Assembly: GCA_016841955.1 (NCBI GenBank)
Contig: JAENYE010000001.1
Span: forward strand, 508,025 to 572,024
Source: Methanobacteriota archaeon
GTDB taxonomy: Archaea; Halobacteriota; Methanomicrobia; Methanomicrobiales; Methanoculleaceae
Length of the DNA: 64,000 bases
Reading direction: 5' to 3'
The position numbers and the translations under genes were made by a program. Position 1 is the first letter of the stretch. Each line of letters opens with the position of its first letter. Of this stretch, positions 18,771-26,271 are shown in pieces. The notes under the pieces were generated by a model. That model was not told where the DNA came from. It saw only the letters and a program-made list of their open reading frames with translations, and ran no database searches.

Positions 18771-18818
18771 ATGTTGAATCCCTCTGTATATGGTACTCAA
18801 TCGGAGGAATGCAGAGAG

Positions 18819-20843
<2,025 letters not shown>

Positions 20844-20946: not shown

Positions 20947-21888
20947 ATGCTTCGCATCTATCGCACGGTTGAAACGGCCCCGGCGCCACGGACAGAGGAG
21001 ACCGGGCGGTTCGAACCCGGGTCCTGGATCTGCTTGATCAATCCGTCGAGAGAGGAGATCGAGGAGGTCTCGGAGAGGCTCTCCGTTCAGGGGGACTACC
21101 TCCGGGCGGCGCTCGACGAGGAGGAGCGCCCGCGGACGGAGACCGAGAACGGCATCACCCTGATCGTCATCGATATCCCGATACCCTACCCCGAGCAGAC
21201 GATCATCTACACGACGATGCCGCTCGGGATCATCGTTGCGCCCGATACCATCGTCACCGTCTGCCTCCGCGACAACCCGATCATCCAGGACTTCGCGAAG
21301 GGTCGGGTGAAATCGTTCTACACCTTTAAAAAGACCCGATTCGTGCTGCAGATCCTCTTTTTGAACGCATCCTACTTCCTTCAGTACCTGCGCCAGATCG
21401 AGCGGGTATCCGACCGGATCGGGGCCGAACTGAACCAGTCAATGCGGAACCGGGAACTGATCCAGTTGATGAACCTGAAAAAGAGCCTGGTCTACTTCTC
21501 GACATCGCTTCGGAGCAACCAGATCGTCCTCGACAAGACCCTGACGTTCCAGCCGCTCCGGATGTACGAGGATGACACCGACCTCCTCGAGGACGTCATC
21601 ATCGAGAACAAGCAGGCGATCGAGATGGCGAACACCTACTCGACGATCCTCACCGAGACGATGGACGCCTTCGCCTCGATCATATCGAACAACTTCAACA
21701 ACATCTTAAAACTCCTCACCTCGATAACCATCATACTCGCGATCCCCACGATGATCGCGAGTTTCCTCGGGATGAACGTCCCGGTTCCCCTCCAGGGCGA
21801 CCCGAACGGGTTCCTTATCATCCTCGTCCTCTCCCTGATCGTCTCCTCGCTCCTCGCGGTGGCCATCAACCGGAAAGGGTGGCTGTAG
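20947..21888 (+). CDS. corA: CorA-type Mg2+/Co2+ transporter
   Basis: 313 residues: a long cytoplasmic N-terminal domain followed by two C-terminal transmembrane helices. The first helix ends in the selectivity motif GMN (FLGMNVP, about residue 276). A charged C-terminus (NRKGWL) follows the second helix, as in the CorA/Mrs2 family. It is monocistronic between hppA and the acs leader. Confidence 0.94.
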   Translation: MLRIYRTVETAPAPRTEETGRFEPGSWICLINPSREEIEEVSERLSVQGDYLRAALDEEERPRTETENGITLIVIDIPIPYPEQTIIYTTMPLGIIVAPDTIVTVCLRDNPIIQDFAKGRVKSFYTFKKTRFVLQILFLNASYFLQYLRQIERVSDRIGAELNQSMRNRELIQLMNLKKSLVYFSTSLRSNQIVLDKTLTFQPLRMYEDDTDLLEDVIIENKQAIEMANTYSTILTETMDAFASIISNNFNNILKLLTSITIILAIPTMIASFLGMNVPVPLQGDPNGFLIILVLSLIVSSLLAVAINRKGWL

Positions 21889-22064
21889 GCGGCTTTTCCG
21901 GGTGCCGCGATTCTGTCCGGGCACCCCGTCCCTTCCCCGCCGACCCTCCCGGCTGCGCGAAAACCTCGGAAAATCCGTTTTCTCTGACATTCTCCGAATT
22001 TACACGAATTCCGGCCCCCTGTTCCAGCCGATCAAAACATTTATAAGCATAATATACATCATTG
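21889..22064. other. Left part of the acs upstream gap, with TATA box
   Basis: The gap between corA and acs is 432 bases. This first part holds no gene; it contains an archaeal TATA box (TTTATAAGC at about 22040-22048) in an AT-rich pocket that leads into the palindromes described next. Confidence 0.6.
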
Positions 22065-22097
22065 ATCATGTTAAATTATACATGATCTATCATGTAT
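22065..22097. promoter_or_regulatory. CATGAT palindromes at the acs promoter (candidate operator)
   Basis: ATCATGT..ACATGAT (22065-22086) overlaps a perfect 9-bp inverted repeat ATACATGAT-CT-ATCATGTAT (22078-22097). The sites lie about 20-50 bases downstream of the TATA box, where transcription start would fall, and also contain a second TATA-like TTAAATTA. A repressor bound here would block initiation of acs. The regulator is unknown. Confidence 0.55.
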
Positions 22098-22099
22098 AA

Positions 22100-22290
22100 T
22101 CAGGGGGCGACCACGCGGGGGAGAGTCCCCGAGATGGTTACGCTCCCGGCGGAGACCGGCAACGAGTGCCGGCGACCGATATGGACGGCAGCACGACCAC
22201 GGGCCGACCGATCGGAAAGACGACGGACCCGGAGATTAGCCGCTTTTGCACGGTTTCGGAACCCGCACGGGGAACGACCGGAGCAATCCG
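22100..22290 (+). ncRNA. Candidate structured leader RNA upstream of acs
   Basis: About 190 GC-rich bases lie between the promoter palindromes and acs, with no plausible gene. Read as + strand RNA they form successive hairpins: GGGG-AGAG-TCCCC near 22117, CCGG-CGGAGA-CCGG near 22146, CCGGCA-ACGAG-TGCCGG near 22157, GGTT-TCGG-AACC near 22252 and CCGGA-GCAA-TCCGG near 22279 with a GNRA loop. No known riboswitch class was recognised. It could be a regulatory leader, or an independent small RNA. The call rests on hairpins I found by eye. Confidence 0.4.
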
Positions 22291-22291
22291 G

Positions 22292-22305
22292 CATGATTAA
22301 TCATG
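22292..22305. promoter_or_regulatory. CATGATTAATCATG palindrome before acs
   Basis: A perfect 14-bp palindrome 15 bases before the acs ATG, sharing the CATGAT half-site with the two inverted repeats at 22065-22097. It may be a second operator or, in RNA, a switchable element beside the GNRA hairpin. Confidence 0.5.
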
Positions 22306-22320
22306 TAAGAGTGTGGGAAG

Positions 22321-24210
22321 ATGGCAGAAACGTTTGCCGTGAAACTCGAAGAGAAACGCTACCTCCCCGACCCCCGGTATAAGGCAACCGCCTGGACGCC
22401 GGATTACACCCTGGCGTACCAGGAGTTCGCACGCGACCCGGAGGCCTTCTGGGACCGGATAGCCAGTGAACTGGTCTGGTTCGAGCCGTGGGAGCGGGTC
22501 AGGGAGTGGAACTATCCCTACGCGAAGTGGTTCGTCAACGCTAAGCTGAACATCACCTACAACTGCCTGGACCGCCACGTCACCAGCGACCGGAAGGATA
22601 AGCCGGCGATCATCTGGCGCGGCGAGCAGGGAGAGGAGCGGGTCTTCACCTACGACGGCCTCTACCGCGAGGTGATGCGGTTTGCCAACGGGCTCGCGCG
22701 CCTCGGCGTCGGGAAGGGCGACCGGGTCTGCATCTACATGCCCCTCGTCCCCGAGCAGATCGTCGCGATGCTCGCCTGTGCCCGGATCGGGGCCGTCCAC
22801 TCGGTCGTCTTCGGGGGGTTCGGGCCCGACGCGCTCGCGATGCGGATCAACGACGCGGAGGCAAAGGTCCTCATCACCGCGGACGTCGGCTACCGGCGCG
22901 GAAAAACCGTCCCGCTCCGGGAGATCGCGGGCGTTGCGCTCACCCAGACGCCGTGCGTCGAACGGGTCGTCGTCCTCCGGCGCGGGACACCTGCCGTCGA
23001 CCTCGACCCCGCCCGGGAGGTCGACTACGGCGACCTCATGGCCCACGCCGCACCGGACTGCCCGGCGGAGGCGATGGACTCGGAGGACCCGCTCTTCATC
23101 CTCTACACGAGCGGCTCGACCGGCGCGCCGAAAGGCATCGTGCATACCTGCGGCGGTTACATGGTCGGGACCTACTACACCACCCGCCACGTCTTCGACA
23201 TCAAGGAGAACGATGTCTACTGGTGCACCGCCGACACCGGCTGGATCACCGGTCACAGCTACATCGTCTACGGCCCGCTCGCGGTCGGCACGACTGTCGT
23301 CATGGCCGAAGGGACCCCCGACTACCCGGACCCGGGCGCTTACTGGCGGCTGGTCCAGGATCTCGGGGTGACGATCTTCTACACCGCCCCGACCGCCATC
23401 CGGATGTTCATGCGTTACGGCGACGAGTGGCCGGCGAAGTACGACCTCTCCTCGCTCCGGGTGCTCGGCTCCGTCGGCGAGCCCCTCAACCCCGAGGCGT
23501 TCGAGTGGTACTATCACACGATCGGCGGCGGGCGGTGCCCGATCGTGGACACCTGGTGGCAGACCGAGACCGGGATGCAGATGCTGACCACGATGATCGG
23601 CGAGGCGATGAAACCGGGGTTTGCCGGAAAGCCCATCCCGGGCGCCGTCGTGGACGTGGTCGACAGGGCCGGCAAGCCGGTCCCGCCCGGCACCGGCGGG
23701 TTCCTGGTCATCAAGGAGCCCTGGCCCGCCATGCTCCGGACGGTCCACCGCAACGACGAGCGCTACTGCGCCTACTGGAATACCATACCGGGATGCTACA
23801 CGGCAGGCGATCTCGCGGTGAAGGACGAGGACGGCTACATCATGGTCATCGGGCGTGCCGACGACCTGATTGTCGTCTCCGGGCACAACATCGGGACTGC
23901 GGAGGTCGAGAGCGCGCTCGTCTCCCACGAGGCAGTGGCGGAGGCCGCCGTCATCGGGAAGCCCGATCCCCTGAAAGGCAACGTCATCAAGGCCTTCGTC
24001 ACCCTCCGCGTGGGTGCGAACCGCGGCGACGGTCTCTCCGCCGAACTCGCCCGCCACGTCAGGAAGAGCCTCGGGCCCATCGCGGTGCCGGCCGAGATCG
24101 AGTATATGGACCGGCTCCCAAAGACCCGGAGCGGCAAGATCATGCGCCGGGTCCTGAAAGCCCGGGAGCTCGGCATGGACCCGGGAGACATCTCCACCCT
24201 GGAGGAGTAA
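22321..24210 (+). CDS. acs: AMP-forming acetyl-CoA synthetase
   Basis: 629 residues, normal Acs length. Adenylate-forming motifs are YTSGSTGAPKGIVHT, TGWITGHSYIVYGPLAVG, DTWWQTETG, and a C-terminal catalytic lysine in KTRSGKIMRR, the site of regulatory acetylation in other organisms. It turns acetate, CoA and ATP into acetyl-CoA, AMP and PPi; a hydrogenotrophic methanogen would use it to assimilate acetate. Eight bases separate it from the OFA transporter, so the two form an operon with a shared palindromic promoter and long leader. Confidence 0.95.
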   Translation: MAETFAVKLEEKRYLPDPRYKATAWTPDYTLAYQEFARDPEAFWDRIASELVWFEPWERVREWNYPYAKWFVNAKLNITYNCLDRHVTSDRKDKPAIIWRGEQGEERVFTYDGLYREVMRFANGLARLGVGKGDRVCIYMPLVPEQIVAMLACARIGAVHSVVFGGFGPDALAMRINDAEAKVLITADVGYRRGKTVPLREIAGVALTQTPCVERVVVLRRGTPAVDLDPAREVDYGDLMAHAAPDCPAEAMDSEDPLFILYTSGSTGAPKGIVHTCGGYMVGTYYTTRHVFDIKENDVYWCTADTGWITGHSYIVYGPLAVGTTVVMAEGTPDYPDPGAYWRLVQDLGVTIFYTAPTAIRMFMRYGDEWPAKYDLSSLRVLGSVGEPLNPEAFEWYYHTIGGGRCPIVDTWWQTETGMQMLTTMIGEAMKPGFAGKPIPGAVVDVVDRAGKPVPPGTGGFLVIKEPWPAMLRTVHRNDERYCAYWNTIPGCYTAGDLAVKDEDGYIMVIGRADDLIVVSGHNIGTAEVESALVSHEAVAEAAVIGKPDPLKGNVIKAFVTLRVGANRGDGLSAELARHVRKSLGPIAVPAEIEYMDRLPKTRSGKIMRRVLKARELGMDPGDISTLEE

Positions 24211-24217
24211 ACCCCCT

Positions 24218-25516
24218 ATGCCCGACACACCGACGATCTTTCGCATGCCTGCAGAGAAGGGGCGATGGGGGCTCGTGGCCCTCGGCCTCGTCATCAACCT
24301 CTGCCTCGGGAGCATCTACGCCTGGAGCGTCTTCGTGACGCCGCTAGCGACACACTTCACCGCGACGCTCGGCCGGGAGGTGACGGCAGGAGAGGTGCTC
24401 CTTCCGTTCTCGGTCTTCCTCGCTTTCTTCGCCGTCGCGATGCCGCTCGCCGGGAAGTATATCGAGCGCTACGGCCCCCGAAAGGTGACGATCGTCGGCG
24501 GGTTCCTCACCGGCCTCGGGTGGCTCCTCGCCTCGACGGCGACGTCGGTCGAGGCCCTCTACATCGTCTACGGAGTGATCGGGGGGCTCGGGGTCGGTAT
24601 CGCCTACGGGGCGCCGGTCGCCGTGGCGGCCCGGTGGTTCCCGGACCGGCGGGGGCTCGCGGTGGGGCTTGCCCTCCTCGGGTTCGGGTTCTCGGCATTT
24701 GTCACCGCAAACGCAGCCGGGGCGCTGATCGCCGCGTACGGGGTGATGGCGACGTTCCGGATATTCGGGGCCGCGCTCATCGTCGTCCTGGTTCTTTCGG
24801 CCCTGCCGCTCCGGTTCCCGCCGCAGGGCTGGCAGCCGCCGGGGTGGTCCCCTCCCGCGCCCGGCACGGGTACCGCGCCGGTCTGCGAGTGCGACCGGAA
24901 GGCGATGCTCCGGACGGGGACCTTCTACGGTCTCTTCGCCTGCTACTTCGTCGGGTGCCTCGCGGGGCTTGCCGCGATCTCGATCGCAAAACCGGTCGGG
25001 ACCGAGGTGGCGGCGATCGATGCGGGGCTCGCGACGGTCCTCGTCGGGTTCTTCGCCGTCTTCAACGGCATAGGAAGACCGGCGTTCGGCAGCCTCGCCG
25101 ACCGGATATCCCCGCAGAAGACGGCGATGCTGACGTTCGCCCTGATTGCGGGAGCATCGGTCCTGATGTGGCTCGCGCCGGGTGTGCCCGCCTACATCGT
25201 CTCGTTCGCCGTCCTCTGGGGGTGCCTCGGGGGCTGGCTCGCCATCGCGCCGACGGCGACGGCATCCTACTTCGGGACGTGCGACTACCCGCGCTGCTAC
25301 GGGGTCGTCTTCCTCGCTTACGGCGCCGGGGCCATAGCCGGACCGCAACTCGCGGGGTTCGTCAGGACGGCGACCGGGACCTATCTCGGGGTCTTCCCGT
25401 GGGTCGCGGCCCTCGCGGCGGCGGGGTTCGCCGTCGCCTGGCTCCTGATGCGGCCGCCGGCCGGGGTTCCGGTGAGAGAGCCACTGCCGGCGACCGCGGT
25501 GGAAGAACAAAAGTGA
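24218..25516 (+). CDS. OFA-family major facilitator transporter
   Basis: 432 residues with about 12 hydrophobic helices. The opening WGLVALGLVINLCLGSIYAWSVFVTPL is the OFA (oxalate/formate antiporter) signature, and GxLADRISPQKTA is an MFS loop. A Cys-containing central loop (VCECDRKAML) is also seen in archaeal relatives. Directly behind acs, it most likely carries acetate or another small monocarboxylate; this is inferred from context only. Confidence 0.9.
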   Translation: MPDTPTIFRMPAEKGRWGLVALGLVINLCLGSIYAWSVFVTPLATHFTATLGREVTAGEVLLPFSVFLAFFAVAMPLAGKYIERYGPRKVTIVGGFLTGLGWLLASTATSVEALYIVYGVIGGLGVGIAYGAPVAVAARWFPDRRGLAVGLALLGFGFSAFVTANAAGALIAAYGVMATFRIFGAALIVVLVLSALPLRFPPQGWQPPGWSPPAPGTGTAPVCECDRKAMLRTGTFYGLFACYFVGCLAGLAAISIAKPVGTEVAAIDAGLATVLVGFFAVFNGIGRPAFGSLADRISPQKTAMLTFALIAGASVLMWLAPGVPAYIVSFAVLWGCLGGWLAIAPTATASYFGTCDYPRCYGVVFLAYGAGAIAGPQLAGFVRTATGTYLGVFPWVAALAAAGFAVAWLLMRPPAGVPVREPLPATAVEEQK

Positions 25517-25800: not shown

Positions 25801-26271
25801 TTATCCCCTTTCCGTGAGCCCGAGCCGACGGAGCACTCCCGCGGCCGCATCCATTCCGCCGTCCAGGTAGACGGCGCCGACGAGCGCTTCCAGGCACTCG
25901 GCGAGAACCCGGCCGGAGGTCCAGACCGCCTGGGCGGCCTCGCCCTTCCCCCAGCGGACGTAGTCCCCGAGATCGAGGTCTTCCGCGAGCCCGCGGAGCC
26001 GGGTCATGTTCACCAGGTTCATCTTCCGGTTGGTGATAGCACCCTTGTCGTGCGCCCCGCCCGCGACCACTGCTTCCACGACGACGACGTTGATGACCGC
26101 ATCGCCGAGGGTGGCGAGGGCGTCCATGTGGGCGTCCTGGGGAAGGCCCGCCTCCAGGGCGTACGCGAGGCGGGTGAGCGCCCGCTCGAGAAGTGCGCGG
26201 TCCTTGAAGGTGTAGCCGATCCGCTCCTGGACCGCGCCCGGGTCCCGGCGGCCGGCGCCGCTGCGGTTCAT
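25801..26271 (-). CDS. Stand-alone RNase III-like domain protein
   Basis: 156 residues. TLGDAVINVVVVEAVV corresponds to the RNase III signature helix and ECLEALVGAVYLDGG to the second acidic helix. There is no double-stranded RNA-binding domain, as in Mini-III-type proteins. The signature reads MDALATLGD where canonical enzymes have NERLEFLGD: the first Glu becomes Asp and the second becomes Ala, so catalysis may be altered. A run of seven T precedes the start on the coding strand (26272-26278). The substrate is unknown; RNase III is rare in archaea. Confidence 0.8.
   Translation of the reverse strand: MNRSGAGRRDPGAVQERIGYTFKDRALLERALTRLAYALEAGLPQDAHMDALATLGDAVINVVVVEAVVAGGAHDKGAITNRKMNLVNMTRLRGLAEDLDLGDYVRWGKGEAAQAVWTSGRVLAECLEALVGAVYLDGGMDAAAGVLRRLGLTERG

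Follow-up and report, generated by a model that had tools for sequence, protein, structure and literature searches.

A conserved folded leader before acs in Methanoculleus, a candidate cis-acting control element

Long 5' leaders have been described for mtaA and mtaC of Methanolobus psychrophilus, an organism for which the published account gives a median 5' leader of 55 nt, with 24% exceeding 150 nt (PMC5378194); by these figures the first-pass annotation of the present locus was, for methanogens, only partly right in calling archaeal leaders usually short. The acs leader of Methanoculleus likewise is a long leader on a methanogen carbon-metabolism gene; it forms a conserved gene-specific family with operator-like boxes of its own. 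The structured cis-regulatory RNA motifs of Weinberg et al. 2010, a product of comparative genomics, are likewise conserved folds upstream of homologous genes, and the main text of that paper contains none of the terms Methanomicrob, Methanoculleus, acetyl-CoA and methanogen (PMC2864571). The acs2 promoter of Methanomicrobiales shares with acs a related box ACATTATTAATAATGT behind a TATA-like box, but there its distance to the start codon is about 33 bp, so that no long leader exists. Rfam 15 at gathering cut-offs gave no match in the 64,000-base window, the whole stretch of DNA that was analysed, and a permissive search of 21890-22330 gave three matches, all far below cut-off, so that the Rfam scan proposed earlier returned no family. 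A published description of the element was not found in the open-access literature. The comparison points to an element that was previously undescribed and that belongs to a known kind, the structured cis-acting mRNA leader. To our knowledge, few cis-regulatory RNAs are known in archaea.

The acs locus and its operator-like boxes

The genome is Methanoculleus-like, as its close relatives by acs carry the name Methanoculleus. A CorA-like gene upstream ends at 21888, and the gap between it and acs is gene-free. Two short frames were considered as upstream open reading frames and rejected. The overlapping 96-aa frame 22092-22382 matches no NCBIfam family, and few gaps in the leader alignment have a length divisible by three (26/172, as opposed to 146/172 that do not), which together argue that it is not coding. 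The frame from ATG 22181 to TAA was discarded because its ATG is missing in some genomes and because of the same gap lengths.

The features of the region are collected in Table 1. The predicted promoter contains the intergenic region's only TTTATA, with the hairpin-rich stretch lying between it and acs, and a TATA-like box stands at a constant distance before O1 in 26 loci. From the position of this box and the usual archaeal distance from TATA box to start site, transcription of acs is predicted to begin about 25 nt past the box, at 22066-22072 and near 22068, which would give a leader of about 250 nt. The whole element would then span about 22068-22320, longer than the roughly 190 bases first proposed, although that stretch itself is real.

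Table 1. Positions of promoter, operator-like, RNA and coding features at the acs locus
Feature	Position	Strand	Remark
TATA box (TTTATA), predicted acs promoter	22040-22045	+	sole TTTATA in 3281 bases around (L001)
Operator-like box O1, ACATCATTGATCATGT	22056-22071	.	overlaps predicted transcription start
Operator-like box O2, ACATGATCTATCATGT	22080-22095	.	perfect palindrome except two centre bases
P1, GGGGGCG:CGCTCCC stem with inner hairpin	22103-22147	+	fold; pair counts on 8 short-type leaders
P2, CCGGCA:TGCCGG hairpin with GA/CGA internal loop	22151-22177	+	absent from several genomes
Conserved junction AGCACGAYNACGG, 13 bases	22190-22202	+	between P2 and P4
P4, hairpin CGGGCC...GACCCG	22200-22231	+	letters vary, fold stays
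P5, imperfect hairpin of about 65 nt	22234-22298	+	directly upstream of ribosome-binding region; 3' strand runs into O3
Operator-like palindrome O3, GCATGATTAATCATGT	22291-22306	.	30 bp before acs
Ribosome-binding region of acs, AAGAGTGTGGGAAG	22307-22320	+
acs, AMP-forming acetate--CoA ligase, 629 aa	22321-24210	+	TIGR02188 854.5 bits, cut-off 725

The palindromic box sequence ACATGATNNATCATGT was searched in this genome. It occurred at eight places with up to two mismatches and at three with up to one, and these three are O1, O2 and O3, all at acs. O3 is also found at -30 in both genomes of the sister genus g20 (L179, L180). Its left half is at the same time the 3' strand of the P5 base (22291-22298), and its right half is conserved though it lies outside P5, which speaks for a genuine DNA site too. 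O1, O2 and O3 are probably the sites of a dedicated repressor.

The genes around acs gave some further observations. The gene following acs (24218-25516, +) encodes an L-lactate-type MFS carrier (NF049980, scoring over the cut-off), perhaps a monocarboxylate importer forming one unit with acs. A membrane pyrophosphatase is encoded a short way upstream (18771-20843, +); since acs produces pyrophosphate, this neighbourhood may be functional. A small protein with similarity to RNase III (TIGR02191, 91.2 bits, short of the 166.25 required) is encoded at 25801-26271 (-); RNase III is unusual in archaea.

Conservation and fold of the leader

With 22040-22320 as the query, a DNA search gave matches in 26 of 61 genomes, comprising 26 of the 35 same-genus genomes (Methanoculleus, own genome counted) and none of the 26 others, and in 26/26 the match lay directly before acs. 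Among the nine unmatched same-genus genomes, G002, G019, G021 and G023 carry the acs orthologue with a recognisable or diverged leader, only a 70-71% acs paralogue was found in G014, G018, G026 and G034, and G027 has the paralogue together with an acs fragment lacking its start. Within the genus the leader comes in two types. The long type extends up to about 225 nt after O2; the short type (G024, G020, G006, G015, G004, G031, G011, G002) extends about 150 nt after O1 and has neither P5 nor O3.

The shapes of the domains P1, P2, P4 and P5 persist while their sequence drifts. For P4, 13 of 13 segments folded to one unbranched hairpin with differing letters, for example GGCC-AUCGAUC-AGGA-GAUCGAU-GGCC in G009, unlike the form in G010. 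The UUUUGCACGG strand and the 13-base junction are kept nearly letter by letter within the genus, and the junction was found with 0-2 mismatches in 25 of 28 leaders, compared with 49 of 1400 shuffles. P5 ends at most about 25 nt before the acs start codon. When it was folded alone, UUGC:GCAA and CGG:CCG (or equivalents) formed in 18 of the long-type leaders that make up A3 (19 in all); the exception is G021, and G030 has the pairs without the outer part.

The hairpins named in the first-pass annotation are present in the letters: CGGGG/CCCCG (22116-22131), CCGGCA/TGCCGG (22156-22172), CCGATCGG (22208-22215), GGTT-TCGG-AACC (22252-22263) and CCGGA-GCAA-TCCGG (22278-22291). A repeat finder requiring arms of at least 6 listed only CCGGCA/TGCCGG and CCGATCGG within that stretch. 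The two loops singled out there did not hold up, since the TCGG loop is not conserved and the GCAA, read as a GNRA loop, sits in the P5 helix, paired with UUGC in 18/19. ACCGG can pair either in P5 or in the CCGGA-GCAA-TCCGG hairpin, and both of these exclusive pairings are largely conserved; together with CCC:GGG, the local hairpin is 92.4% paired overall. It was rejected as the true fold, being broken in G010, G003, G030 and G021, while P5 stands in G010, G003 and, in its upper part, G030. The local hairpin is retained only as an alternative state. A pairing against the ribosome site, CCCGCAC:GTGTGGG, is part of this genome's predicted fold but was dropped, as other leaders do not keep it. 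The ribosome-binding region is neither steadily hidden nor free, with a mean unpaired value of 0.33-0.89 in 28 leaders.

We determined the strength of the fold next to shuffled sequences. The stretch 22098-22320 folded at -91.4 kcal/mol (z = -2.98), and 2 of 200 shuffles were as low; with no coding region found, the description of a gene-free, hairpin-rich stretch before acs was borne out. All 28 aligned leaders had negative z values (mean -1.98, 40 shuffles each), compared with -0.99 for length-matched pieces of acs coding sequence as a control. The antisense strand of the leaders reached -2.22, equally low, so folding energy alone gives no strand. G-U cells outnumbered A-C cells in the pairs, 37 to 13 (A5) and 21 to 13 (A2), which favours the acs strand.

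Covariation was counted on structures derived from the same alignments and sequences, so the paired shares given here are inflated: 87.4% of cells for P4 and P5 together in 19 sequences (slid controls at most 49.8%), 90.1% for P5 alone (at most 47.6%) and 90.7% for the short type in 8 sequences. In P4 and P5 together, 9 cells were changed on both sides compared with 3.8 by shuffling (1/500), and further pair types were no better than shuffles (194/500). For P5 alone, the covariation score was reached in 5/500 shuffles and the count of 4 both-side pairs in 39/500. The short type had 11 both-side cells compared with 4.1 by shuffling (0/500), with at most 3 in slid controls. Conservation and covariation in relatives, whose absence had been set as the refuting outcome, were thus both seen, the former in 26/35 same-genus genomes and the latter, within the genus, above slid controls but at moderate strength against shuffles. 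The evidence for an RNA fold is good for P4 and P5 and moderate for the rest of the leader. In Methanoculleus, the acs message very probably has a folded 5' leader, about 250 nt long, that starts, as predicted from the promoter, near 22068.

These data bear on a reading in which the region acts as DNA, O1/O2 and O3 holding a repressor loop with a spacer between them and the hairpins being incidental. The confinement of boxes with up to one mismatch to acs in this genome and the recurrence of O3 at -30 in g20 would fit such a loop. But the distance from O2 to O3 differs widely (211, 179, 192 and 170 bp), O3 is missing from short-type leaders, the junction and the hairpin shapes would not be preserved in a spacer, and the fold energy of the leader is below that of the coding control. 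We regard this reading as unlikely.

A metabolite-sensing riboswitch for acetate, acetyl-CoA, CoA, AMP or PPi was also considered, in which the junction and the GCTTTTGCACGG strand would form the pocket and P5 the switch, ACCGG pairing upstream in P5 or downstream in the CCGGA-GCAA-TCCGG hairpin. The metabolic fit of acs to a leader standing before it in 26/26 (transcription being predicted), the conserved junction among variable helices and the two mutually exclusive, largely conserved pairings all speak for it. Yet the junction does not depend on P5, a helix missing from short-type leaders; some genomes in which P5 holds (G010, G003) have a broken alternative hairpin; and neither a conserved hiding of the ribosome-binding region nor, by a bacterial-type rule, a terminator was found. 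Riboswitch pockets are usually conserved across long distances, and no core was recognisable outside the genus among 100 genomes with models R1 and R3, so the lack of any aptamer surviving there disfavours this reading too, and a riboswitch proper appears distinctly unlikely.

Model searches and the evolution of the leader

To look for copies elsewhere, 100 genomes were searched with R1, a model of the 3' half built from 19 leaders, and with R3, built from 8 short-type leaders only and including the operator. R1 matched 21 genomes and R3 36, and matches outside the genus were weak or not above operator-only scores. Within the genus R1 matched 20/35 genomes, each at acs, 19 of which were in the model; the held-out G019 was recovered right before acs (E 0.001). 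Matches of R1 away from acs, in G068 (E 0.016) and as a second match in G008 (E 0.06), were taken as chance. Because R3 includes the operator, it also matches paralogue operator boxes, the best at 30.6 bits. Among the genus's other acs leaders, 18 of 22 scored above this best operator-only match and 12 above 40 bits. In g20, R3 gave matches of 28.5 and 28.8 bits, which fall below the operator-only best and were discounted as copies of the element. G023 was missed by R1 and R3, and G013 by R3. In the window, model R2 matched 22231-22301 (E 1.9e-23) and one other site, a chance match (E 0.93); it also gave weak matches to L180 of g20 (E 0.45) and to L070 of the held-out G019 (E 0.065).

These searches also speak to the suggestion that the stretch encodes a small RNA of its own, ending before acs. 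An upstream promoter of its own and compact folds would suit such an RNA. Against this, the element adjoins acs in 26/26, the model searches of 100 genomes found no leader copy apart from acs, and no terminator-like site was found in 21890-22400 by a bacterial-type rule. A separate small RNA is hardly credible, and what is supported of the original proposal is a conserved structured acs-linked element with some compensatory change.

The acs paralogue of this genome (acs2, C5:217708) has the box ACATTATTAATAATGT at -33 (G000:C5:217675-217690, L193), directly behind TTGATATA, without a long leader. Across the order, this kind of box, preceded by a TATA-like box, stands at about -33 in many paralogue-type acs genes, which by this arrangement would have almost no leader. 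The recurrence of the box in these promoter sequences suggests that one acs regulator may be common to Methanomicrobiales. In another acs lineage (L042, L044, L049, L050, L085, L189, L190, L200) we noted ATGCAGTGCAT-type upstream boxes and an apparent divergent upstream gene, which together probably mean a different regulator there. In genus g7 (13 genomes; L203-L212, L037), GGCTGATTGAATGAGTCCAAACGGAAAGGTGCGAT is almost unchanged within the final 40 nt upstream of acs; a short frame that precedes acs in g7 is not conserved, its stop codon being absent in several genomes.

We labelled 100 acs loci, two of them manually, by the position of the farthest box, and computed a tree from 98. In it, a clade of 49 rows, whose SH-aLRT of 87 falls short of the 95 mark, contains 48 long-leader genes with a box 150-290 bp upstream. 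These genes belong to Methanoculleus, to three further genera in its family and, 16 of them, to another family, f5, where one is named Methanoregulaceae; five long-labelled rows (L083, L086, L185, L188, L194) fall outside. Between genera the leader sequence is unrecognised by R1 and R3, apart from an ACGGAA-type, purine-rich run ahead of the start codon. Length and place are thus kept while the sequence turns over. The f5 leaders as a group folded no better than shuffles (individual z from -4.59 to +0.39), and the mean z of all 16 sister leaders from both families was -1.14. Given that f5 as a group has no folding signal, we claim structure for Methanoculleus only. In g20 a P5-like hairpin with other letters precedes O3 in single-sequence folds, a hint that its leader may be structured too.

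Quick sequence turnover at a kept length would fit a generic role, in which a structured leader with no switch only protects or primes the mRNA, like the long 5' UTRs of mtaA/mtaC; in the published account of that cold-adapted methanogen, long 5' UTRs aid transcript stability (PMC5378194). But the junction and the UUUUGCACGG strand are kept near-identically, beyond what bulk structure needs, and we find a purely generic leader very doubtful.

Proposed role of the acs leader

By a little better than even judgement, we favour the leader as a cis-acting control element of one old acs lineage, with a repressor acting on transcription and the fold on translation or mRNA lifetime. The conservation, position and consistent fold of the leader are observed, as are the operator-like boxes, which in this genome are nearly confined to the acs genes; the start site, the repressor and the control of translation or stability are what we infer from them. 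A repressor would set transcription by binding O1 and O2, the palindromes located at the predicted start site, and also O3 upstream of acs. The stacked hairpins P1, P2, P4 and P5 would shape the translation and lifetime of the message, P5 near the start codon would fix how the ribosome-binding region is presented, and the junction would be the likeliest docking place for a protein or another RNA.

A bolder version, which we hold to be quite improbable, is an acs riboswitch fused to a DNA operator. Since 22291-22298 doubles as the left half of O3 and as P5's 3' strand, one sequence would be read as DNA by the repressor and as RNA by the switch. If true, a ligand- or protein-driven switch would control acetate activation in methanogens.

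For the favoured control element, the defined operator-like box is a handle for finding the regulator, and the long-leader acs clade beside a leaderless paralogue sharing its box offers a natural test of the contribution of a long leader. Acetate is a required carbon source for hydrogenotrophic methanogens such as Methanoculleus, so control of acs would set their carbon supply.
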